Assembly: GCA_947499155.1 (NCBI GenBank)
Contig: CANMND010000004.1
Span: 1 to 64,000, forward strand
Reading direction: 5' to 3'
Origin: an uncultured Sphingomonadales bacterium
GTDB taxonomy: Bacteria > Pseudomonadota > Alphaproteobacteria > Sphingomonadales > Rhodothalassiaceae
Length of the DNA stretch: 64,000 nt
This document shows positions 26,868 through 41,108 of this stretch, piece after piece. A program made the translations under genes and the position numbers. The first letter of the stretch is position 1. The number at the start of each line of letters is the position of its first letter. Below the pieces are notes generated by a model. That model was not told the origin of the DNA. It did no database searches and worked only from the letters and a program-made list of their open reading frames with translations.

Positions 26868-29860
26868 CTAGAACTTCACGTTGATCTGGGCATAGCCAAA
26901 GCGGCCCGGGACATCGTAAAGCGTTGCGTCAAAGCCGTTGAGAGCGCAGGAGACGCATGCTGGCGGATCGGTCTGGAAGATGTTGTTGATGCCGAGAGTA
27001 AAGCTGATGCGGTCATCAAACATCTCCGGACGCCATGTGGCCTGAAGGTCGCCATAAATACGCGAGCCAAGCTTGTTGGTCTTGTTTCCGGGGTTGGAAC
27101 ACAGCGTGCTGAGGTCGGCGATGCCGCCTGCGGATGCACCAAACAGTGCGTCAGGACAGCGTTCAGTGATGCCGTCGATATAACGGGCCGAGAAGGTGAC
27201 CGTTACAGTTTTGAACATCCAGTCCAGATTGGCAGACATGCGCCATTCCGGCCAGCCTTTTTCCGGATCGCCCTGCTCCCTGCCCAGCTGTTTGACTGTG
27301 GTTGTACCGGCAGCAATGGTGAAGCTTTCATCATATTTGTTCACCCAGGTGGTCATCAGGCCCAGATGAAAGCGCCCAATATCAGTATCGGGAGAATCAT
27401 AATTAAGTGAAAAATCAATTCCGTCGGTTTTGATTCCACCGATATTTTGGAGTCTGATATTAAAGCCGTTGATGATCCCGTTATCGGTGCGGGTGATGCC
27501 ACTACAAAGCACAGGATCCAGCGTTTGAATACAGCCTGTAAGCTTGACCTGGGGAGCAATGGACTGGATTGCCTGGGAGATATCAATATTCCAATAGGAC
27601 ATCTCGAATGTCATGCGATCGACACCGGGAATATTTGATGCCCATGTGGGACTATAAACACTGGATATGCTCCAGCTGTCCGATGTTTCAGGTTTAAGCG
27701 CCAGATTGCCGCCAACTGTTGCAGAAATCTGGGAGTTTGCCTGCTCAAAGCTGCCATCTGCCGGAACACCGAGTGCGATACAATTGGCCTGTATCTGCGC
27801 TGATTTCGGATCGCCTGTGACACCAAGGAAATCGGAACACAGATCATCTACTGTTGCATCGAACCGGGCTGCTGAACCGAACAGTTCACCTATACCGGGC
27901 GCGCGCAGGCCTTCTGAATAACTGCCGCGCAGCAGGAAGTCGTTCGTCACGCGCCAGTTGAGGCCGGCCTTGAAGGTGGTGCTGCCGCCAAAGGTGGAAT
28001 AGTCGGAGTAGCGGATGGCGAAGGATGCCTCCAGATATTTTGCCAATGGGATATCAGCAAGTACTGGCACGACGATTTCGCCATAAAGCTCGTCAACATT
28101 GAAGTTGCCTTGTGTGGGCGTTGAGGGCACACCAGCGCTTTCACCGGCCACAACCACGGCATCGGGCTGGAAAAAGCCTTCGCGCCGCCGATGTTCATAG
28201 CCACCGGCAAAGGCGACCCAGCCACCGGGCAGTTCGAACAGGTCGCCAGAGATATTGGCAGTGAAGTCAAACAGCTCGGATTCACTTTCATCCTTCTGGA
28301 CGAAGGTGACGAAATCCAGCATGGCCTGGGTAATGGATCCGTTGCCATCGGGGCCTTGCCCGCCAAAGAAATTGAACGGTACGCAGCCATTGATGGAATT
28401 GCCATCACTATCCACGCATTCATCCAGTGGTCCCAGGGCCTGTTTCAGCTTGGCAGAGTTAAAGGCACCAAATTTACGCTGGCTGCCCCGGCTTTCCGAG
28501 AAAGTGGCGTGCATATCCCAGTAGAAATTGCGATTCTGCAATTCAAAGTCGCCCTTAAGGCCGCCATTCACATACCAGGTATCCACATTCTGTTTGAAAA
28601 TACGTGGGCCTGCTTCCAAAGGACGCCGAAGGGCAAACTGGAAGCCTGAATCTGCGTCAAGTGTTATGCCAAACGGATTGAAGGGGTTCGTCGCATCTAC
28701 TGTGACGGTATCCATCAGATTGCCATTACCCGCGTCAGGACCTATGAACAAGGGCTCGGGCGCTGCCTGATTGGTGGATTCACGATTGTTGAATACGGCC
28801 TTCATTTCGAAGGTAATATTGTCTGTCAGATCATGTTCAATATTGGAAAAAAAGCTTACCCGCTTGTTGGGGGTGGAGACCAGATTGAACTGGGCGAAAT
28901 TGAAGCGGTCCGCATCTGAGAAACTATGGAAGTCCAGCGAATTGGGATTGCTGGGATCAAATGCTGCCAGATTGCCCAGCCCATTAATTGCATTATCGTT
29001 GAGTGTAATATCTGCAATGATGGGCATGCCATTGCTATCAAGCGCTCCCGTTGCAAAACGGTAACGACCTTGCGGTGTGCCGGACGAACAGCCTGGTGTA
29101 CAGGCCCCAACGCCCGGTGTCGGGAATGTGGAAATAGCGCGATCGGAAGCCCGCACGGCACTTGCCCTGTTATAGGTAAAGTCAAAGAACATGCGGGTGC
29201 GTTCGCCCTGGGTACCAAATGACAGGGAATATTCCTGCGTTTCGCCATCGCCTTCATTCAGAAACATACCGCCATAGGCCGAGGCTTCAAAGCCATCAAG
29301 ATCGCGCTTTGTGATGATGTTGATCACACCGGCAATGGCGTCGGAACCATAGATGGCTGATGCGCCGTCTTGGAGAACCTCGATCCGGTCAATGGCGTTT
29401 GTCGGCACGGTACCAAGGTCCACAGCCGATGAGACGCCGGAGCCGGATGTTTCATTCACCCAGCGCTGGCCATCGACCAGCACAAGAACGCGTTTGGGGC
29501 CAAGCCCGCGCAGGTCCGCCTGAACTGAACCCGCACCAATGCCGCCACCATCAGGCGGAAAGCCGAAATTGCCGGAATTGTTGAACTTGCTGTTAAAGGT
29601 GCCCTGTGATTGCGGCAGTCTTTGCAGGAAGTCACCCACATTGGTTAGGCCGCTTTTGTCGATATCTTGTGAGTCAAGATTGATGATCGGCTGTGGGGAG
29701 TTCAGTTGAGAGCGCCTGATACGTGAGCCGGTAACCACCACCTCTTCGATCACGCCTTCTCCTTGTGCCGGTGCCTGCTGGGCCTCGGCAGCCCCCCTGT
29801 CAATAGTGCAAAGCCTGCACAGCCGCTCATTAGGGCGATGCGCATTGCATGATGGGTCAT
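26868..29860 (-). CDS. TonB-dependent outer-membrane receptor, signal peptide out of frame
   Basis: The body is a ~1000-residue TonB-dependent receptor: TonB-box-like EEVVVTGSRIRRSQ, plug motifs including VLVLVDGQRWVN, IEVLQDGASAIYGSDAIAGVINI, and a long barrel ending in QINVKF. Substrate is unknown. The body frame is open to 29924 but has no signal peptide there. A good signal (RIALMSGCAGFALLTGG) begins at ATG 29860, after GGAGGA, in another frame and is cut off by a stop. The frames meet at a run of six C (+ strand) at 29792-29797; adding one base would join LLTGG to AAEAQQAP. It is either a sequencing error, a recent mutation or a switch. A bidirectional terminator follows the gene. Confidence 0.85.
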
Positions 29861-30327
29861 CATGTCCTCCATATGGCTGATTTACACACGGCTCTTGCCG
29901 CGGGAACAATATTGGCGGAATCAAGCAGATAGGGGGCGAGGTATCTATTTAAATTATAATAAATTCAACCAAGAGAATATGTAATTCGGCTTTTATCTGG
30001 AAGGCCGGACAGTGCAGAATTCGCAGAAATCTGCGGATGCTGGGGATATATTGGTATTTTTCTTAAAACTGTAAAAGGAAATGCTCACAAGGTTTTAGGG
30101 CAGGACTGTTGCGTTAATATCACACAATCTGAAGGCCTTGACGCGAGATGATCCAGACAAGGACAGTGCTTCGGATGGACATGTCACAAGACAGACCACC
30201 GGTTCGTAACTCCGCAACCTGTCCTTTTGTTTCATTCTGCTGTGTCACCCCACGGCTTGACCGTGGGGTCTGGCGCAAATCGCGCTGCTGACGACTGCTG
30301 CTGACACCTAAAGACGGGCGGTACTGC
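29861..30327. other. Intergenic region upstream of the TonB-dependent receptor
   Basis: These ~470 bases hold no convincing gene; the ORFs crossing it have no family features. It must hold the receptor promoter: an AT-rich tract around 29945-29970 includes a TATAAT match on the minus strand at 29953-29958, but I see no good -35 box. A perfect palindrome lies at 30247-30269. Confidence 0.5.
30247..30269. repeat. Perfect 9-bp-stem extragenic palindrome
   Basis: ACCCCACGG and CCGTGGGGT are perfect complements around the loop CTTGA. No T run follows on either strand, so it is not a normal terminator. It sits about 60 bases beyond the mlaA stop and could be a REP-like extragenic palindrome or an mRNA-stabilising hairpin. 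Only one copy was noticed in the window. Confidence 0.55.
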
Positions 30328-31152
30328 TTATTCAGGGCGTTTAGGGCTTTGGTTGTCATCGTCGGGGAAATCGCCGAAATCCATGTCAAAAAGGTCTTCT
30401 TCTTCCTTGGACTGGCCTGCCTCACCATTGGAAATCAGGAACTGGCGACGCTGGCGATATGCAGAGCGGGCAAAAGCATAGGGGTCATCGGATTTTTTAA
30501 GTTCCTTGATCACTGACCAGTTGCGGTCACGGACTTCGATGATGCCACCAGCACTCCAGCCACGTCGTACCCAGCGCAGATCAGCAATATCAAGGCCAAG
30601 GCCCACAGGCTCTGACAGGGCGTCTCCAACGAAGCCTACAGCATCACGTGGATTGCTTGGTCCGATAAAAGGCAGAACCAGATAAGGCTCACTTTGCCAT
30701 CCCCAGACGGCAAGAGTCTGTCCAAAATCCTCATCTATGACCGGAATCTCAAATGCGGTTGCAGGGTCTGCAATGCCGCCAAGCCCCAAAACCGTATTGG
30801 CGAGGAAGCGTTTTGTCGCGATCCCCGCGCGGTTTGGTTCACCTTGCAACAATGCATTTACGATCACCAAAGGCGTCTTTGCGTTTGCGTAAATATTGGT
30901 AACAACCTGTCGTAAGGGGCTGGGAATGATCGTGCGATAAATCCAGGTCACCGGGCGCAGGATGACCTTGTCCAGAGCCATATTCAGATCCCACATGACC
31001 CGATTGAACGGTTCCAGCGGGTCATTTGCCTGCTCGTAAAGCGCAAGCGCGTGCGGGTCACTCTCCGGTGGACGGGTGGCACAGGCCGCAAGAACAAGGC
31101 TGAGAAGAATTGCAAGTAACCAGACTGGACGCCGCATATTTATAACGTGCAT
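30328..31152 (-). CDS. mlaA: MlaA/VacJ family lipoprotein
   Basis: ATG 31152 has GAAGG about ten bases upstream; the longest frame begins at 31221. A signal ends in the lipobox LAAC. The mature part has DPLEPFNRVMWDLN, SPLRQVVTNIYANAKTPL, FLANTVLGLGGI and FGQTLAVWGWQSEPYLVLPFIG, the MlaA hallmarks. In its family the protein removes mislocalised phospholipids from the outer leaflet of the outer membrane with OmpC and the MlaFEDB system. The C-terminal tail is acidic (KEEEDLFDMDFGDF). Confidence 0.92.
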   Translation of the reverse strand: MHVINMRRPVWLLAILLSLVLAACATRPPESDPHALALYEQANDPLEPFNRVMWDLNMALDKVILRPVTWIYRTIIPSPLRQVVTNIYANAKTPLVIVNALLQGEPNRAGIATKRFLANTVLGLGGIADPATAFEIPVIDEDFGQTLAVWGWQSEPYLVLPFIGPSNPRDAVGFVGDALSEPVGLGLDIADLRWVRRGWSAGGIIEVRDRNWSVIKELKKSDDPYAFARSAYRQRRQFLISNGEAGQSKEEEDLFDMDFGDFPDDDNQSPKRPE

Positions 31153-31330
31153 GAACAAATGGCCTTCTGTGACAAGAGGGCCAGACCCGGTTTGACCCGG
31201 TTCCGTGGCGGCCCGCACCAACGCATAGCGGTTTCTAGCAGAAGAAGGCGACCAGCCTCAACGCTTCTCATGTTCTAAATTGCAAATTCTGATCGGGAAG
31301 CACGCCATTGTGATAAAACTGTTTACGAGA

Positions 31331-31348
31331 CATAAAGATATGTTTATA
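31331..31348. promoter_or_regulatory. Candidate operator for the ArsR-type regulator
   Basis: ATAAA and TTTAT form an inverted repeat around GATATG, about 50 bases before the regulator's start at 31399. Size and symmetry suit a winged-helix dimer of ArsR type. Autoregulation would control the whole metF-metH operon. It is the only such repeat seen in this leader; binding is inferred. Confidence 0.4.
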
Positions 31349-31398
31349 TAGTGCATATCAATTGTCCTGTTTAAGGTGTGAAAGAGGCGCGAGTGTCG

Positions 31399-32364
31399 AT
31401 GGATGCGATTTTATCAGCCTTGCGGGCGGCTGGAGAGCCAACAAGGCTTCGGATTCTGGGCCTTTTGGGTCATGGCGAACTAACGGTGACTGAACTGACG
31501 CAAATCCTGCGCCAAAGCCAGCCCCGGGTGTCTCGCCATTTGCGGCTGTTGTCCGAAGCGGGTCTTTTGGACCGTTTCCGCGAAGGAGCCTGGGTGTTTT
31601 ACCGTCTGGTGGAAGATGGCCCGCAGGCGCATCTGGCTCGCACGATTGTGGATCTGCTGCCTGAAGATGCTCTTGACCATCAGCGCGATCTTGAACGGCT
31701 CGCCGATGTGCGTGAAGCCCGGGCCGAGGCAGCCGCCGCCTATTTCCGCGCCAATGCCCCACACTGGAACAAGATTCGCTCGCTTTATGTGCCTGAAGAG
31801 CAGGTGGAACGGCGGCTTCTGGCTGTTTTGGAAGACCACAAGGTGGATGATCTGCTTGATATCGGTACGGGCACAGGCCGAATCCTTGAGGTATTCGCCC
31901 CCCATATTCAGCGCGGTCTGGGAATTGATCTCTCGTCCGAGATGTTGACGGTCGCCCGTGCAAGCCTTGCTGCCAAGGATATAACCCATTGTCAGGTCCG
32001 TCTGGGGGACATGTACGACCTGCCTGTTCCCAATGAGAGCGTCGATCTGGTGATCCTGCATCAGGTGCTTCACTTTGCCGAGGACACATCCCTTGCCCTT
32101 AAGGAAGCGGCGCGGACACTGAAGATTGGCGGCATAACTCTCATCGTGGATTTTGCCCCTCACAATCTGGAAGATCTGCGCGATGAGCACCAGCACCGCC
32201 GCCTTGGCTTTTCCGATGATGAAGTTGTGGTGTGGGGAGAGGCGGCAGGTCTTGAAAAGGCAGAGGTGGAACACCTGGATGGCGGCGCATTGACCGTCAC
32301 TTTGTGGAAATTGCGCAAGGCCGAGCCGGTACGGAATACTAGAGGTCTGGAGTTGGTTAAATGA
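31399..32364 (+). CDS. ArsR-family regulator fused to a SAM-dependent methyltransferase
   Basis: ATG 31399 is preferred; a GTG at 31378 has its AAGG too close. Residues 1-75 form an ArsR winged helix: EPTRLRILGLLGHGELTVTE, QSQPRVSRHLRLLSEAG. The metal-binding ELCVCDL of classical ArsR is replaced by ELTVTEL. From ~residue 130 comes a class I methyltransferase: LLDIGTGTGRILEVFA, MLTVARASL and LHQVLHFAEDTSLALKEAARTL. Similar regulators (SahR-like) respond to methionine-cycle metabolites. The next gene, metF, overlaps its stop by four bases, so this probably senses SAM or SAH to control methionine synthesis. Confidence 0.88.
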   Translation: MDAILSALRAAGEPTRLRILGLLGHGELTVTELTQILRQSQPRVSRHLRLLSEAGLLDRFREGAWVFYRLVEDGPQAHLARTIVDLLPEDALDHQRDLERLADVREARAEAAAAYFRANAPHWNKIRSLYVPEEQVERRLLAVLEDHKVDDLLDIGTGTGRILEVFAPHIQRGLGIDLSSEMLTVARASLAAKDITHCQVRLGDMYDLPVPNESVDLVILHQVLHFAEDTSLALKEAARTLKIGGITLIVDFAPHNLEDLRDEHQHRRLGFSDDEVVVWGEAAGLEKAEVEHLDGGALTVTLWKLRKAEPVRNTRGLELVK

Positions 32365-33278
32365 ATGTAGTTCGTGCTCTCAATCCGTCGTTATTTGCCG
32401 AATCCGGCGGGGATGTGTCGGTCTCATTTGAATTTTTTCCGCCCAAGACCGACAAAATGGAAGAAAAGCTCTGGAGTGCTCTTAAGACGCTGGAGCCTTT
32501 GCAGCCCCGGTTTGTCTCTGTCACCTATGGGGCCGGCGGCTCAACAAGGGAGCGGACGCACAATACAGTCAAGCGTATTCTGGATGACACCAGCATGATA
32601 CCTGCGGCTCATCTCACATGTGTGGATGCGACGAAAGACGAGGTGGATGAGATCATCCGCGCCTATCACGATGCCGGCGTTCGCCACATCGTGGCCTTAA
32701 GGGGTGATGCGCCTGATCCCTCACTTGGCTATCGTCCGACGCCCGGTGGCTATGAAAATGCCGCTGACCTTGTGGCAGGCATCCGGGCTATTGGAGATTT
32801 TGAGATTTCGGTTGCGGCCTACCCGGAGCGTCATCCCGATTCTGGTACACTAGTGGCGGATCTTGATAATCTGAAACGCAAAATTGATGCAGGCGCCACG
32901 CGGGCAATTACGCAGTTTTTCTTTGAGGCAGATTGTTATTTCCGCTTTCTGGACCATGCCCGGTCCTATGGCATTGATGTGGAAATTACGCCCGGTATCT
33001 TGCCTGTCACCAATGTGAAACAGCTAAAACGCTTTTCCGAGCAATGTGGCATGAAAGTGCCGCAATGGATGGCGGACTTGTTCGATGGCCTTGACGATCA
33101 CCCCCAGACACGGGCGCTGGTGGCAGCAACGGTAGCGGGCGAGTTGTGCCGTCGTCTTCAGGCAGGCGGCGTATCGGAGTTTCATTTTTACACACTCAAT
33201 CGGGATGAATTGACATTCGCCATCTGCCGCATGCTGGGTGTAAGGCCCGGTCTGTCTGCTGTGGCGGCGGCGTCATGA
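32361..33278 (+). CDS. metF: 5,10-methylenetetrahydrofolate reductase
   Basis: The 305-residue protein starts within the regulator's stop (ATGA overlap). It shows SFEFFPPKTDKMEEKLW, FVSVTYGAGGSTRERT, IVALRGDAPD, AAYPERHPDS, ITQFFFEADCYFRF and PGILPVTN, the MetF signature. It reduces methylene-THF to methyl-THF, the methyl donor for MetH. Its stop overlaps the start of the next gene by four bases, so all three are translationally coupled. Confidence 0.96.
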   Translation: MNVVRALNPSLFAESGGDVSVSFEFFPPKTDKMEEKLWSALKTLEPLQPRFVSVTYGAGGSTRERTHNTVKRILDDTSMIPAAHLTCVDATKDEVDEIIRAYHDAGVRHIVALRGDAPDPSLGYRPTPGGYENAADLVAGIRAIGDFEISVAAYPERHPDSGTLVADLDNLKRKIDAGATRAITQFFFEADCYFRFLDHARSYGIDVEITPGILPVTNVKQLKRFSEQCGMKVPQWMADLFDGLDDHPQTRALVAATVAGELCRRLQAGGVSEFHFYTLNRDELTFAICRMLGVRPGLSAVAAAS

Positions 33279-34369
33279 AGGACACAATCATGGGCAATAG
33301 CAAAGCGGCAGAAAACAGCGCCGACTTCACTACCAGGCTGAGAGCTATCGCTTCGGAGCGTATTGTCATACTGGATGGCGCCATGGGCACCATGATCCAA
33401 TCATATAATCTGGGTGAAGCCGATTACCGAGGTGAGCTTTTTGCAGATCACACACATGACCTGAAGGGCAATAATGACATCTTATGTCTGACGGCACCCC
33501 AGATTATTGATGAAATCCATGAGAGTTTTCTGGAAGCAGGCGCTGATATCATCGAGACCAACAGCTTTAACGGTACCACAATCAGCCAGGCCGATTATGG
33601 GATGGAAGATGCGGTCGTTGATCTTAACCTGGCCTCAGCCCGGATAGCCCGTGCAGCAGCGGATCGCTGGACGGAAAAAACTCCTGAACAGCCGCGCTTT
33701 GTTGCCGGTGCCATTGGGCCGACCAACAAGACCCTTTCAGTGTCGCCGCGAGTGAACGATCCGGGCCATCGGGATGTAACCTTTGATCAGATGGAGGCAG
33801 TTTATTTTGAACAGGCGAAAGCATTGGTTGAAGGTGGCGTTGATCTTTTGCTGATCGAAACGGTTTTTGACACGCTGAATGCCAAGGCGGCTCTGGTGGC
33901 TGTGGACCGCTTGTCCCGGGAACGGGGCGAGACCATTCCTGTTATTGTGTCTGTTACTGTAACGGACCTTTCGGGACGCAATCTGTCAGGACAGACAGTT
34001 GATGCTTTCTGGTATTCCGTCCGTCACGCAAATCCGCTGGCGGTTGGCCTTAATTGCAGCTTTGGGGCTGACCAGTTGCGGCCTTATGTTCAGGCTCTGG
34101 CGAAATGTGCAGATACCCTGGTCTCCGTTTACCCCAATGCGGGCCTGCCCAATGACATGGGTGCCTATGATGAATTGCCCGAACATACGGCTGCATCCCT
34201 TGAAGGGTTTGCCAAGGATGGCTTTGTCAACATTGTAGGGGGGTGTTGCGGTACAACTCCTGACCATATGCGAGCCATTGTTGCAGCCATGAAAGGCAAG
34301 GCTCCACGTGTCATCCCCAAGCTGCCCCGGCGTCTTTATCTGGCAGGGCTTGAGACGATGACTGCCTGA
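33275..34369 (+). CDS. metH: Methionine synthase, homocysteine-binding half (split MetH)
   Basis: The 364-residue protein covers only the first module of cobalamin-dependent Met[36 protein letters not shown] and [12 protein letters not shown]. The zinc ligands for homocysteine are present in VGLNCSFGA and [11 protein letters not shown]. In many bacteria this is joined to the folate and B12 modules; here the protein stops and the rest follows as a second gene 45 bases on. Start overlaps the metF stop (ATGA). The split form is known in several alphaproteobacteria. Confidence 0.94.
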
Positions 34370-34414
34370 GCACGTCTCCGCCCGTTGTTTTCCTTTTATG
34401 TATGCAGACCAGCC

Positions 34415-37075
34415 ATGACCAGACCCATCGCACAGTTTATCAATATTGGCGAACGAACAAATATCACGGGTTCAGCACGGTTTAAAAAACTCGTGCTGTC
34501 CGGTGATTATGAAGCCGCGCTGGACGTTGCCCGCAGCCAGGTGCAAAACGGCGCCCAGATTATTGATGTAAACATGGATGAAGGCATGCTCGATTCAGAG
34601 CAGGCCATGACCACCTTTCTCAACCTGATCGCAACTGAACCCGATATCGCCCGGGTGCCGATCATGATTGACAGTTCGAAATGGTCGGTGATTGAGGCGG
34701 GCCTTAAGTGCGTTCCGGGCAAGGCTATCGTCAATTCCATATCCATGAAAGAAGGCGAAGCCGAGTTTCTGGAGCATGCCCGGATTATCCGTCGTTTTGG
34801 TGCGGCAACGGTTGTGATGGCTTTTGATGAAGAGGGCCAGGCAGCGACTGTTGAACGTAAAGTGGAGATCTGCGCGCGGTCCTACGATGTTTTAACGGCC
34901 GACGGCTTTCCGCCGGAAGACATTATTTTCGATCCCAATATTTTTGCGGTGGCGACGGGGATTGAAGAACACAACCCCTATGCGGCCAATTTCATTGCGG
35001 CCTTGCCTGAAATCAAAAAACGTTGTCCCCATGTGCGGATCTCAGGCGGCGTCTCGAATGTGTCCTTTTCATTCCGGGGCAATGAACGGGTACGCGAAGC
35101 GATGCATTCGGTTTTCCTCTATCACGCCATCCGGGCCGGTTTGGATATGGGGATCGTCAATGCGGGCCAATTGGCAGTTTATGACGACATCGAACCGGAA
35201 CTGCGGTCCTGTGTTGAAGATGTAATCCTCAACCGCCGCGATGATGCGACCGATCGCCTGCTTGAAATTGCCGAGCGCTTCAAGGGCGGTGGACAAAAGC
35301 GGGTCGAAGATCTGGGTTGGCGCGATGCTCCGGCTGCCAAGCGGCTGGAACATGCTCTAGTTAAGGGCATCGACAAGTGGGTGGTGGAAGACACGGAAGA
35401 AGCCCGCCTGCAATTTGAATATCCGATTGAGGTCATCGAAGGCCCCTTGATGGACGGCATGAATGTGGTGGGCGACCTGTTTGGCTCAGGCAAGATGTTC
35501 TTGCCCCAGGTTGTGAAATCAGCGCGGGTCATGAAAAAGGCGGTGGCCCATCTGCTGCCATTTATTGAAGCAGGAAAAACGGAAGGTCTGGGAGAGCCAA
35601 AAGGCCGTATCGTCATGGCGACGGTCAAGGGGGACGTGCATGATATCGGCAAAAATATCGTCGGTGTTGTTTTACAATGCAACAATTTCGAGGTCATTGA
35701 TCTGGGCGTCATGGTGCCATGGCAGGACATTCTCGACAAGGCGCGTGAGGTGAAGGCGGACATGATCGGCCTGTCGGGGCTGATTACGCCATCCCTTGAT
35801 GAAATGGTGACAGTCGCCGAAGAGATGGAGCGCAAGGCCCTTGATCTGCCCTTGCTGATTGGCGGGGCCACGACTTCGCGCATGCATACGGCCGTGAAGA
35901 TCGCACCCTGCTATTCAGGTCCGGTTGTTCATGTCCTGGATGCGTCGCGTTCGGTGGGTGTGGCTGGCTCCCTCGTATCTGACACTCAAAAGACGGCCTT
36001 CGTTGAACAGACCCGTTCTGATTATGATGCAATTCGAAAAAAGCGTCTGGCCCAACCCAAGGCAAGCCGCCTGATCTCACTGGAAGCCGCACGGGCCAAC
36101 AAGGCGAAAATCGACTGGTCCGGGTATAAGCCCGACCGTCCCGTCCTTTTGGGCACGGAAATTTTCAGTGATTTTCCCCTGCACGTCTTGTTGCCGCGGA
36201 TCGACTGGACACCTTTTTTCCGTACCTGGGAACTGGCGGGCGTATATCCGGCAATCCTTGATGACGAGATCGTAGGAGAAGCGGCCCGCGCTCTTTATGA
36301 AGACGCACAGGCCATGCTGAAGCGCATTGTCTCTGAACGGTGGTTGAAGGCCCGTGGCGTGTGTTCGTTCTGGCCGGTTAATGCAGATGGTGACGATGTG
36401 GTGGTCTGGACGGATGAAAGCCGGACTAAAGAACTGTCACGGTTGTATTTTCTGCGCCAGCAACAACAAAAGCGTGGTGACAGGGCCAATGACTGTCTGG
36501 CTGATTTTGTGGCTCCAATTGACAGTGGCATCATCGATTATGCTGGAGGATTTGCAGTAACAGCAGGACTGGGCATTGAAGAGCATATTGCCAGATTTAA
36601 GGCAGAAAATGATGACTATTCTTCTATCTTGTTGAAAGCACTGGCTGATCGTCTGGCAGAGGCGTTTGCCGAAACCCTGCACGAGCGGGTGCGCAAGACA
36701 ATCTGGGGCTATGCACGAAACGAAAATCTAAGCAATGAGGAGATCATCCGTGAGCGTTATCGCGGTATCCGTCCGGCACCGGGTTATCCAGCCTGCCCTG
36801 ACCATTCGGCCAAGCCTGAACTGTTTCGGCTTTTGAATGCGAGCCAGACAACGGGGATCAGGCTGACTGACCATTTCGCCATGCTGCCTGCTGCCAGTGT
36901 GTCCGGGTACTATTTTGCCCATCCCGAGAGTAGTTATTTCGGCATAGGTAAAGTGGGCCGGGACCAGGTTGAAGATTACGCAAACCGGCGTGGCGTGAGC
37001 GTGGAACAGGCAGAAAAATGGCTGTCCTCTTCCTTGGGATATGAGCGGGAGCAAGCCTTGAAGCGAGCCAGTTGA
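34415..37075 (+). CDS. metH: Methionine synthase, folate/cobalamin/activation half (split MetH)
   Basis: ATG 34415 gives an 886-residue protein beginning [20 protein letters not shown], the pterin-binding domain; a TTG at 34385 is less likely. The cap and B12 domains follow, with DxHxxG in [12 protein letters not shown] and the later [12 protein letters not shown] and [14 protein letters not shown]. The SAM activation domain is complete: [17 protein letters not shown] and [12 protein letters not shown] near the end. It transfers methyl from methyl-THF to homocysteine together with the protein at 33275. Confidence 0.95.
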
Positions 37076-37096
37076 TCCTTGACCGATTGTCTTCCC

Positions 37097-37909
37097 TTAT
37101 CCCGTCAAGGTCTCGCCGGGCTCACAGCGCCAGCGATAGGTGCCCATGGCTGTTGTTGCGGTCAGCGAGGCATCAGGGAATGACAATGTGGGGCCTATGC
37201 CACCGGGCGCTATGGCAACGCTTGGTCCGCCAGACGCACTAAGTGCAGCGCCCATAACCACAGTGACGCGGACCCGGCTTGCCGATGATGAGATGGCGTT
37301 CACCACCTTCACCCTTACCGGGGGATCGGGCAGGCCGGTATCCCCGGTTTCACTGGCATCGGCAAGGCAGGTGTTGCCGTCATTGTCTTCACAGACAACG
37401 GTTACTGTTGGTGTGACCTTGACCGTACCGGTAGTGAAATAAATCCCGTAATAGGCCCCACCCCAGGCCTTTGCGAATTCCACCAGCGCGCCATGGGATG
37501 GGCTTGTGGAATAGACAGTATAAAGATAGGTGCGCCAAGTCTTGAGGTCTGGCCCCGCGACAATGCCGGTGCCGCTTGTCAGGCGCGAGCGGCAATTGGC
37601 ACCGCTTCCCGGCGTCGTTGTATTTGTCTTGTCCGTTATGGCGTTATTATTACGGACACGAAACAGTATATAAGACAACAGTATCAGCACCAGGATAAGG
37701 CAGGCGGCACTGGCCGACAGATGTCCCATAAGAGTGGTGCTGTAAAGACCGAACACAAGAGTCAGCAGCAAAAACAGAAGCGCTGAGCCCAGGGCCCCAC
37801 TTACGGATGAGCGCCCGGCCAGGCCTTCGGCATATGGGGCAAAGGCCAATAATAGGAGGGAAAAACTTAAAAATAGAGCGGCGAAAATAGCTAAGACCGG
37901 AGCATGCAT
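37097..37909 (-). CDS. Membrane-anchored protein of unknown function
   Basis: ATG 37909 has GGGGAG upstream, giving about 270 residues. Three hydrophobic helices occupy roughly residues 3-100 (VLAIFAALFLSFSLLLLAF, LGSALLFLLLTLVFGLY, ACLILVLILLSYILF). The rest is a polar domain rich in threonine, glycine and valine, with four cysteines and an Ig-like, beta-rich look (VTPTVTVVCEDNDGNTC). No family is recognised. It converges on metH, separated by 21 bases. Confidence 0.65.
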   Translation of the reverse strand: MHAPVLAIFAALFLSFSLLLLAFAPYAEGLAGRSSVSGALGSALLFLLLTLVFGLYSTTLMGHLSASAACLILVLILLSYILFRVRNNNAITDKTNTTTPGSGANCRSRLTSGTGIVAGPDLKTWRTYLYTVYSTSPSHGALVEFAKAWGGAYYGIYFTTGTVKVTPTVTVVCEDNDGNTCLADASETGDTGLPDPPVRVKVVNAISSSASRVRVTVVMGAALSASGGPSVAIAPGGIGPTLSFPDASLTATTAMGTYRWRCEPGETLTG

Positions 37910-38001
37910 AAGGGTATCTCCCCGCCAAAGAAGAGATATTACCATAATTTATTGTGAATCTATATGCCTTACGTCCTGAACGCTGCCTAAAGGAATGCGT
38001 A

Positions 38002-38498: not shown

Positions 38499-41108
38499 AT
38501 GTTTTTACGCGCAATCATAATGGGGTTCGCCCTGTTAAGTTTTTCATATGCAGTGTCTGCTGCACCTATCGGCTTCTTTGTGCCTGAAGGTGTCGAACAT
38601 GATGCCGGCATTCCAACGCCTGAAGCATTCCTAGGTCATGAACTGGGCGCGCGCCCTGTCAGCCATGACAGCATGGTCGCTTATTTGCGCGCGGTGGTGG
38701 ACCTGTCTGACCGCATGACGATTGAGACCATCGGCTATAGCCACGAACAGCGCCCTATCGAATTTCTTGTGATCACGTCGCCTGAAAATCACAGCCGTAT
38801 TGACGATATCAAAAAGACCCATGTGGCCCTGAGTGACCCGTCAAGCGGAGTTAAGCCATCAGAAGATATGCCGGTTGTCACCTGGCTCAACTACGGCGTC
38901 CATGGTGCTGAATCAGCCGGTATGGATGCGGTGATCCCGGTGGTTTATCATCTGGCTTCTGCCAAGGGTGGCGATATTGAGCGCACATTGTCTGAAAGCG
39001 TGATCCTGATTACGGCGATCTTCAATCCGGACGGCCACACCCGCCGCATTGATCACGTCCTGAAATATTCATCCGCTGTGCCGGTGACTGATCCGGCTGA
39101 CGCCATTCATAATCTGTGGGTGGATGCGCGCACTAATCATTACTGGTTTGACCTTAACCGCCAATGGCTTTTGCAGACCCAGCCCGAATCCCGCGCCTGG
39201 CTTGCCAAATGGCACGAATGGAAGCCCAATCTGACTGGCGATTTCCATGAGATGGGATCGGATTCCACCTATTACTTTCATCCCGGCGTGCCGAAAAGAA
39301 AAAATCCACTCATCCCGGACCGCTCACGCGATCTATTGAAGGCGATCGGGAATTATCATGCGGAAACGCTGGACCGGGACGGGGCACTATATTTTTCGGA
39401 AGAAGGCTTCGACAATTATTATATCGGCAAGGGCTCTACTTATCCTCATATCAACGGCTCAGTCGGGATATTGTTTGAAGCAGGAGCAGCACGTGGCGGC
39501 ATGATCGAAACGGACAATGGCCTGCGCACCTATGCGCAAAACATCCGCAAGCATTTCCTGACCTCGCTCTCCAGTATCGAGGGTGCACGCGCCTTGCGTA
39601 AGGACCTGCTGGACAATCAGGCCACATTTTTTCAGGAAGCCAGGAACCTTGCATCATCGGACCGCACCAAGGCCTATGTCTTTGGCTCTCCCGACCGGGG
39701 CCGTCTTGACCGTTTTCTTGATCTTCTCGCCCGCCACAAGATTGATGCCTATGCCCTAAGCCGTGATGTGGATGCAGAAAATCGCACCTGGCGTCAGGGT
39801 GAGGCTTATGTGGTGCCCGTGGCGCAGGCCCAATATTTTATGATCAAGGGCATGTTCGATCGTGTGCGGGAATTCGAGGAAGAGATCTTCTATGATGTCT
39901 CGGGCTGGACCATGCCTTTGGCCTATGATCTGGATTACGCAGCACTGTCACGCAGCGACTGGCGTGATGCCTTGATGGGCGCACCGACCAAAATGGAAAA
40001 ACAGTCCGTCCCAGTACCGTCTGAGGCGAGCTATGGCTATCTGATCGAATGGAATGACTATTACGCCCCGCGTGCACTTTATCGCCTGCTTGATGCAGGG
40101 CTTAAGGTGCGTGGTGGCCTGAGACCGTTCCGGATTGAGACCGATCAAGGCGTCCGTGACTTTGAGCGTGGCACTTTGTTTGTACCCTATGAGGGCCAGA
40201 CTAAGGCGGCGAGTGCGCAAATATACGATCTGATGCGGGCGGTTGCGACCGAGGAGGGAATTCCTGTGTACGCCGTCTCCAGCGGACACACCCAGACGGC
40301 AGGGTCTGATCTGGGCGGGCGGGATTCATTTCGTTCAATCACCAAACCTAGCATTATGCTGTTGATTGATAACGGACTTGATAAATACGAAACCGGTGAA
40401 GCGTGGCATGTGCTGGATTATGAAATGCGTATCCCCGTCACCTTGCGCCGCAGTGATGAGTTGGGCGGGATAAACTGGTCACGCTATACCCATATTATCC
40501 TGCCGGGCGGGCGCGGGCGACTAGACGAGAAAACGTCTGTCCGGCTTGAGCGCTGGATCCGCGAAGAAGGCGGTACCCTGGTAGCTCTTCGTCACAATGC
40601 CAAATGGGCGCAAGAGACATTGCTGCGTGATAAAGACACCCAAGATGAGGACAATAAGGACGCGAGCCAGCAGGCAGCCACAAAACGGGTGGACTATGCC
40701 GATTATTCTGTCGAGGAAGCTCGTGACGTAATTGGTGGTGCCATCTTTGGCAGTGATCTTGATATTTCTCACCCAATGGCGTTTGGTCACTATGACCGGC
40801 TTATTCCCAGCCTGCGCAATACGACGCTGGTGCTTGATTCTCCGAAAAACCCTTATGCAACCGTAGCCCGCTATCTGGACGAAGGAGTGGTGATGTCAGG
40901 TTATGCATCGGAAAAGCGAGCATCGGAAATTTCCGGTACACCTTTGATGATTGCCGAACGACTGGGAAAAGGCAGTGTGGTGCTGTTTGCTGACGACCCC
41001 AATTTCCGTGCGACATTCCTTGGGACCAGCAGACTGTTTCTCAACAGTCTCTACTGGTCGCGGGCCTTTAACGCGCCTCGGGCATCAGAAGAAGCCGAAG
41101 CGCATTAA
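38499..41108 (+). CDS. Exported M14-family zinc carboxypeptidase
   Basis: The 869-residue protein has a signal peptide (AIIMGFALLSFSYAVSA). The N-terminal third is a peptidase M14 domain with the zinc ligand pair in NYGVHGAESAGMD, ITAIFNPDGHTRRI, and a following NRQWLLQTQPESRAW and DFHEMGSDSTYY. A long C-terminal part includes PGGRGRLDEKTSVRLERW, a glutamine-amidotransferase-like segment common in large secreted members. It likely trims peptides in the periplasm or outside the cell. Confidence 0.88.
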   Translation: MFLRAIIMGFALLSFSYAVSAAPIGFFVPEGVEHDAGIPTPEAFLGHELGARPVSHDSMVAYLRAVVDLSDRMTIETIGYSHEQRPIEFLVITSPENHSRIDDIKKTHVALSDPSSGVKPSEDMPVVTWLNYGVHGAESAGMDAVIPVVYHLASAKGGDIERTLSESVILITAIFNPDGHTRRIDHVLKYSSAVPVTDPADAIHNLWVDARTNHYWFDLNRQWLLQTQPESRAWLAKWHEWKPNLTGDFHEMGSDSTYYFHPGVPKRKNPLIPDRSRDLLKAIGNYHAETLDRDGALYFSEEGFDNYYIGKGSTYPHINGSVGILFEAGAARGGMIETDNGLRTYAQNIRKHFLTSLSSIEGARALRKDLLDNQATFFQEARNLASSDRTKAYVFGSPDRGRLDRFLDLLARHKIDAYALSRDVDAENRTWRQGEAYVVPVAQAQYFMIKGMFDRVREFEEEIFYDVSGWTMPLAYDLDYAALSRSDWRDALMGAPTKMEKQSVPVPSEASYGYLIEWNDYYAPRALYRLLDAGLKVRGGLRPFRIETDQGVRDFERGTLFVPYEGQTKAASAQIYDLMRAVATEEGIPVYAVSSGHTQTAGSDLGGRDSFRSITKPSIMLLIDNGLDKYETGEAWHVLDYEMRIPVTLRRSDELGGINWSRYTHIILPGGRGRLDEKTSVRLERWIREEGGTLVALRHNAKWAQETLLRDKDTQDEDNKDASQQAATKRVDYADYSVEEARDVIGGAIFGSDLDISHPMAFGHYDRLIPSLRNTTLVLDSPKNPYATVARYLDEGVVMSGYASEKRASEISGTPLMIAERLGKGSVVLFADDPNFRATFLGTSRLFLNSLYWSRAFNAPRASEEAEAH

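Follow-up and report, generated by a model that had tools for sequence, protein, structure and literature searches.

What does an ArsR-type repressor sense when it is fused to a methyltransferase-like domain and stands at the head of methionine genes, and how do two separately encoded pieces of methionine synthase behind it serve the cell? The question is raised by positions 31,331 to 37,075 of the 64,000-nucleotide stretch analysed here (the window; contig CANMND010000004.1 of an uncultured Sphingomonadales bacterium), in which an earlier note, made from the letters alone, had seen such a regulator coupled to metF and a split metH. We find that the regulator is very probably the alphaproteobacterial SahR, a repressor of sahR-metF-metH1-metH2, ahcY and metK that would be released by S-adenosylhomocysteine (SAH), with the two MetH proteins making up one enzyme. 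The assignment draws on domains, operon, operator and regulon, the D. alaskensis SahR sequence being outside the comparison. SahR has been described as an ArsR-family, SAH-responsive regulator that has a 20-bp palindromic operator and a core regulon of sahR, ahcY, metH, metH2, metF and metK; it occurs in alpha-, delta- and some gammaproteobacteria, and five alphaproteobacterial groups are already listed with it (Leyn 2014, PMC4239095). The window holds a well-formed SahR operon of a kind already described, and extends the SahR regulon to a further lineage, one related to Iodidimonas (whose regulator is 81% identical to that of the window).

Operon, operator and predicted regulon

The open reading frame (ORF) list and the sequence give four genes in series on the + strand, sahR, metF, metH1 and metH2, preceded by a palindrome:

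31330..31349, no strand: putative operator, an imperfect 20-bp palindrome ACATAAAGATATGTTTATAT whose core ATAAA-N6-TTTAT, at 31332-31347, is exact in the window
31322..31350, + strand: possible promoter, TTTACG, 17 bp, TATATA, placed tentatively, with the operator within the spacer and over the -10
31399..32364, + strand: sahR, 321 residues, ArsR-type winged helix-turn-helix (HTH) fused to a sensor domain like S-adenosylmethionine (SAM) methyltransferases (Pfam/NCBIfam, AlphaFold2, fold search)
32361..33278, + strand: metF, methylenetetrahydrofolate reductase (TIGR00676 at 344.1 bits, cut-off 293.7; MTHFR domain)
33275..34369, + strand: metH1, homocysteine-binding module of methionine synthase (PF02574; PRK09490 profile positions 5-353 of 1234)
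34415..37075, + strand: metH2, folate-binding, B12-binding and reactivation modules (PRK09490 positions 359-1233 of 1234, above cut-off)

The palindrome before the regulator is not a matter of chance. Its consensus ATAAAGATATCTTTAT stands upstream of the regulator at 0, 1, 2 or 3 mismatches in 34, 27, 12 and 6, respectively, of 80 relatives of the regulator (the best 80 of 122 found), with one locus at 5, so that at most 3 mismatches separate site and consensus in 79/80 relatives, compared with 4/1600 scans with shuffled patterns. The same holds for 59 of 69 further loci, taken from additional genomes of the window's class, against 9/1380 shuffled-pattern scans. The repeat to which the earlier note had drawn attention is therefore conserved and is present exactly upstream of the regulator, although it spans 31332-31347 and not, as first given, 31331-31348. 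A block TTTAC-N-AGACATAAAGATATGTTTATATA common in the alignment to the window and two relatives (L008 and L009) tentatively suggests that the operator overlaps the spacer and -10 of a promoter; a consensus scan of 31200-31450 found no sigma-70-like site.

In the window's own genome (2,814,840 bases, 25 contigs) only three sites come within 2 mismatches of the operator consensus: those before ahcY (0 mismatches), this operon (1) and metK (2). A reversed control pattern has 0 matches at this level; sites that differ by exactly 3 mismatches number 13 more, as against 8 for the control. A search for the repeat before other methionine genes, which the earlier note had proposed, thus finds it upstream of ahcY and metK. 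Given these sites before the operon, ahcY (the SAH hydrolase AhcY is encoded in this genome) and metK, together with metF and MetH within the operon, the regulon corresponds to the published SahR core of ahcY, metF, metH/metH2 and metK, as judged from sites rather than expression. It is predicted to be small, with three promoters covering the SAM cycle.

Nineteen other genomes with the regulator contain 47 sites at up to 2 mismatches, of which 18 precede sahR and 29 are spread over 15 of the genomes. Twenty of these 29 were examined, the other nine (4, 2 and 3) lying in the control-rich genomes G041, G079 and G104. Among the twenty, 13 precede ahcY (8, counting L256 although its alignment starts 16 bases inside the site), metK (3), metF (1) or metH1-metH2 (1). 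The gene metF follows the regulator in 78/80 relatives and 63/69 further loci.

The genes themselves are tightly packed, as the earlier note had it: ATGA overlaps join the stop of sahR to the start of metF (32361-32364) and the stop of metF to the start of metH1 (33275-33278), and 45 nt separate the metH1 stop from the likely metH2 start, a close junction with no overlap. The sahR ORF could begin at GTG 31378, but ATG 31399 (ORF residue 8) is the likelier start because in 52 of the 80 relatives the tblastn alignment starts at residue 7 or 8 of the ORF; for metH2, whose ORF could begin at TTG 34385, ATG 34415 is the likely start, the start region having been compared across relatives. Riboswitch control of the met operon was considered and rejected, as positions 30500-37500 have no Rfam match up to E 1.

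The regulator and its signal

Both domains described in the earlier note are found within one ORF (HTH_5, E 1.9e-13; Methyltransf_11, E 2.4e-22), and the ArsR domain, said there to lack metal cysteines, has none at all; the single cysteine of the protein, residue 205 (numbered from GTG 31378), lies inside the methyltransferase-like domain. The AlphaFold2 model has a mean pLDDT (predicted local distance difference test) of 91.7 (59 sequences), and its C-terminal domain matches the fold of SAM methyltransferases (best Z 23.4, 1.7 Å over 176 residues). The first whole-chain Foldseek matches are likewise HTH-plus-methyltransferase proteins, for example Rv2258c at 17% identity, with a poor two-domain superposition (root-mean-square deviation 19.5); a solved SahR structure was found neither among 60 of the 74 sequence matches nor among 50 fold-search matches, as listed. 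The SAM-site residues D161, G163, G165 and D184 are invariant in 152/152 alpha-type rows, and residues of the presumed acceptor side are nearly so (H228 in 147, H232 in 151, D258 in 152, H262 in 151, R268 in 144 and H273 in 151), 'acceptor side' being our assumption from motif order in class I methyltransferases and not from measured distances.

These features fit a mechanism carried over largely from the SahR family. The regulator, presumably as a dimer, would occupy the ATAAA-N6-TTTAT palindrome within the promoter of its operon and so repress sahR-metF-metH1-metH2, and likewise ahcY and metK. Its methyltransferase-like domain, which we take to be a defining feature of SahR, would bind SAH, so that build-up of SAH would cause the regulator to leave DNA and induce the whole SAM cycle, that is SAH removal (AhcY), remethylation (MetF and MetH) and SAM synthesis (MetK); MetH1 and MetH2 would assemble into one B12-dependent methionine synthase. 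In work from 2014 associated with Novichkov, SAH reportedly causes SahR release, and the sensor domain is said to be related to SAM-dependent methylases. The earlier guess that the fused domain reads SAM or SAH directly therefore agrees with the published SAH-responsive family, but the idea is not new, and it is SAH, not SAM, that is reported for the Desulfovibrio protein. Elsewhere in the alphaproteobacteria, a sahR of Ensifer aridi appears with the figure 1023 (which we read as bp), long enough to encode such a fusion; its expression is given as up in the sahR deletion (PMC8877191).

In the window's class, 94 of 190 sampled genomes (own included) match the regulator strongly (E at most 8e-77). 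All but one of the 94 cover both domains, while the match in G127 is a fragment located at the edge of a contig; the next match is to a single domain at 7e-20, leaving the other 96 genomes without the regulator at that level. In a sample of 200 genomes from the phylum, matches at 1e-30 occur in 53, of which 35 belong to the window's class and 18 lie outside it; G303 and G330, both of the window's own order, have no match at this threshold. The 18 non-alpha relatives match over their full length (E 1e-43 to 1e-58), and 14 precede metK and 4 metH1-metH2. Between the alpha and non-alpha types the SAM-site residues are largely common, and His262 and Gly277-Phe278 nearly so, whereas the stretch between differs, the metH-linked group having a third form of it.

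Several observations weigh against the assignment as SahR with an SAH signal. The SAH effector test was made on the Desulfovibrio protein, and the response of the window protein is predicted by analogy. The 18 non-alpha relatives are only 26-34% identical to it, the best upstream 20-base dyad is of the ATATCAA..TTGATAT type in 10 of the 14 metK-linked cases, and the presumed acceptor-side signature is H..e.LR..h.HrrLGF in alphas as against mostly H.q.wa...cGd.wLGF in the metK group; with low identity, another dyad and another signature, the effector could therefore differ in alphas. The window protein shares with the SahR of Proteobacteria its nature as an ArsR-family regulator of the SAM cycle, the targets sahR, metF, metH, metH2, ahcY and metK and a palindromic operator; the alpha type has an operator and an acceptor-side signature of its own. 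The operator evidence also has gaps, as 1/80 and 10/69 loci have no match within 3 mismatches, 7 of the 20 examined extra sites precede none of the tested genes, and in the 19 other genomes the reversed control gives 19 matches to set against the 47 real ones, 15 of the 19 being concentrated in G041, G079 and G104. Finally, a Brevundimonas protein discussed below is reported to make SAH from SAM on addition of arsenite (PMC10190100).

One possibility is that the regulator senses SAM, with high SAM acting as a co-repressor as in MetJ. Its SAM-binding motif is intact, SAM is proposed as the effector of the related SamR of Xanthomonadales, a SahR-like regulator whose gene adjoins metH1 and metH2 (PMC4239095), and the literature searched contained no direct test of SAH or SAM binding by an alpha-type protein. 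We regard SAM sensing as quite unlikely given that the operator precedes ahcY both in this genome and at 8 of the 20 sites examined elsewhere, and in published work ahcY is tied to SAH-responsive regulons. SamR itself differs from SahR in its operator, in an identity of about 30%, and in that metK is the sole SAM-cycle gene found in its regulons (PMC4239095, so far as described there). It is also conceivable, if unlikely, that alpha-type SahR is an active methyltransferase that serves as a switch, in which repression would follow the turnover of SAM to SAH on some acceptor and so read methylation flux and not SAH alone; this rests on the acceptor side being conserved in alphas and distinct from the non-alpha type.

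A separate literature leads to arsenic. Li et al. 2023 describe ArsR^M, which opens the operon named 'metRFHH' in Brevundimonas sp. M20 and is called an arsenite methyltransferase; it is reported to bind its own promoter, raise the minimum inhibitory concentration of arsenite for E. coli and give a methyltransferase signal with arsenite, and the figures given are a 960-bp gene with C134, H223, Q224, H227 and Y228 (PMC10190100). ArsR^M and the window regulator are most likely the same orthologue, to judge from the shared operon order and from L126, a member of the regulator family whose 320 residues, Cys134, His223 and run HQVLHY match the published numbers, the ArsR^M sequence itself being outside the comparison. 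On this basis the fused domain could methylate arsenite and the HTH couple arsenic stress to methionine supply, and 0.9 kb past the end of the met operon there is indeed an ArsC-family gene (PF03960, 38002-38352, - strand). The ArsC family also includes housekeeping members, and no arsenic role is implied for this one.

Two residues assigned to the arsenite site, C134 and Y228, are, however, not retained in the window protein. Among 150 rows, cysteine stands at the C134 position in L126 alone; enlarging the alpha-type set by L222 and L223 brings the count to 2/152, the second case being L223, which shares family f64 with L126. The window protein has proline there (P139). At the Y228 position 105 of the 150 rows have Phe and 44 have Tyr, the residue in the window protein being Phe (F233). 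With one cysteine only, the window protein lacks the ArsM Cys set, and it scores 52 bits against the ArsM profile, whose cut-off is 263. Another gene of the same genome, L263 (C2:284808-285521), encodes an ArsM-like methyltransferase that reaches 173 bits, likewise below the cut-off. The operator sites found precede SAM-cycle genes, and the signal in the Brevundimonas kit assay comes from the formation of SAH, the available part of that report describing no experiment that detects methylated arsenic directly (PMC10190100). Arsenite methylation therefore appears unlikely as the role of the regulator family, and for the window we consider the coupling of arsenic stress to methionine supply very improbable. 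The reported activity may be real in the Brevundimonas strain; if the catalytic switch set out above were true, it would be a side reaction of the acceptor site. SahR, an SAH sensor, and ArsR^M, an arsenite methyltransferase, are thus two names, from two literatures joined here, for apparently the same orthologue, and the sequence evidence favours the SahR role.

Most metK-linked non-alpha SahRs (L207 and L209-L221) have cysteines around the presumed acceptor loop (LC..H...CGD), which the window protein does not. A P. aeruginosa sahR mutant is reported to be HOCl-sensitive (PMC7950407), and in view of these two observations a redox input might be worth considering.

Methionine synthase in two proteins

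The earlier note was right that MetH is made as two proteins. The separate ORFs metH1 and metH2 cover PRK09490 from 5 to 353 and from 359 to 1233, respectively, indicating a cut at the linker between homocysteine and folate modules with no module missing: homocysteine, folate, B12 (cap and binding) and reactivation modules are all present across the pair, metH2 carrying Pterin_bind, B12-binding_2, B12-binding and Met_synt_B12 (Pfam/NCBIfam). The own genome has one PF02965 and one PF02574 match and 0 PF01717 matches, so no second methionine synthase or MetE was found in it and the split enzyme is the sole methionine synthase found. It is plausible that the two halves must bind each other.

We surveyed MetH in 121 sequences (the window, the 80 relatives and 40 of the further loci), and in 51 of them both halves of the orthologous enzyme are present, as a split enzyme in 39 and a fused one in 12. 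A quick MetH2 tree without bootstrap of 49 of these rows, 2 having been left out for length, requires at least 4 changes of state, 2 of them forced by well-supported branches. The alternative that a single fused gene only looks split, through sequencing error or decay to a pseudogene, can hardly be credited. In its favour, 12 of the 51 have a fused orthologue in the same operon; against it, the cut in the 39 split cases falls at this linker or close to it, with a separate stop and start in every case, the tree needs only 4 changes, and both halves are domain-complete in a genome where another MetH or MetE was not found.

A split MetH is of a type already described. The two-protein MetH of Burkholderia phytofirmans also places the S-methyltransferase module in a protein of its own, apart from a second protein with the pterin, B12 and reactivation modules, and MetH makes up 9 of the 11 split cases in that study (GapMind, PMC7311316); it belongs to another lineage, whereas the window split sits inside a SahR operon. 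Phaeobacter inhibens, itself an alphaproteobacterium, likewise has a split B12-dependent methionine synthase, which differs in its three parts and separate reactivation proteins (PMC5764234).

The methionine synthase beside SahR also differs by lineage. Forty-two of the 80 relatives (L016 and L020 included) carry a different fused MetH, of about 31-38% identity. Azospirillum-type SahR operons (L012, L015, L017, L018, L021-L027 and L029) have this other fused class at 31-35% identity, and the fused MetH of L012 passes TIGR02082 at 1248 bits.

Neighbouring genes

Directly after metH2, on the opposite strand, lies a 282-residue ORF (37097-37945) with no Pfam match at E 0.001. The remaining neighbours, with no obvious tie to methionine, are a TonB-dependent receptor (26868-29924, - strand) and an MlaA lipoprotein (30328-31221, - strand) upstream, and an M14-type peptidase (38499-41108, + strand) downstream.

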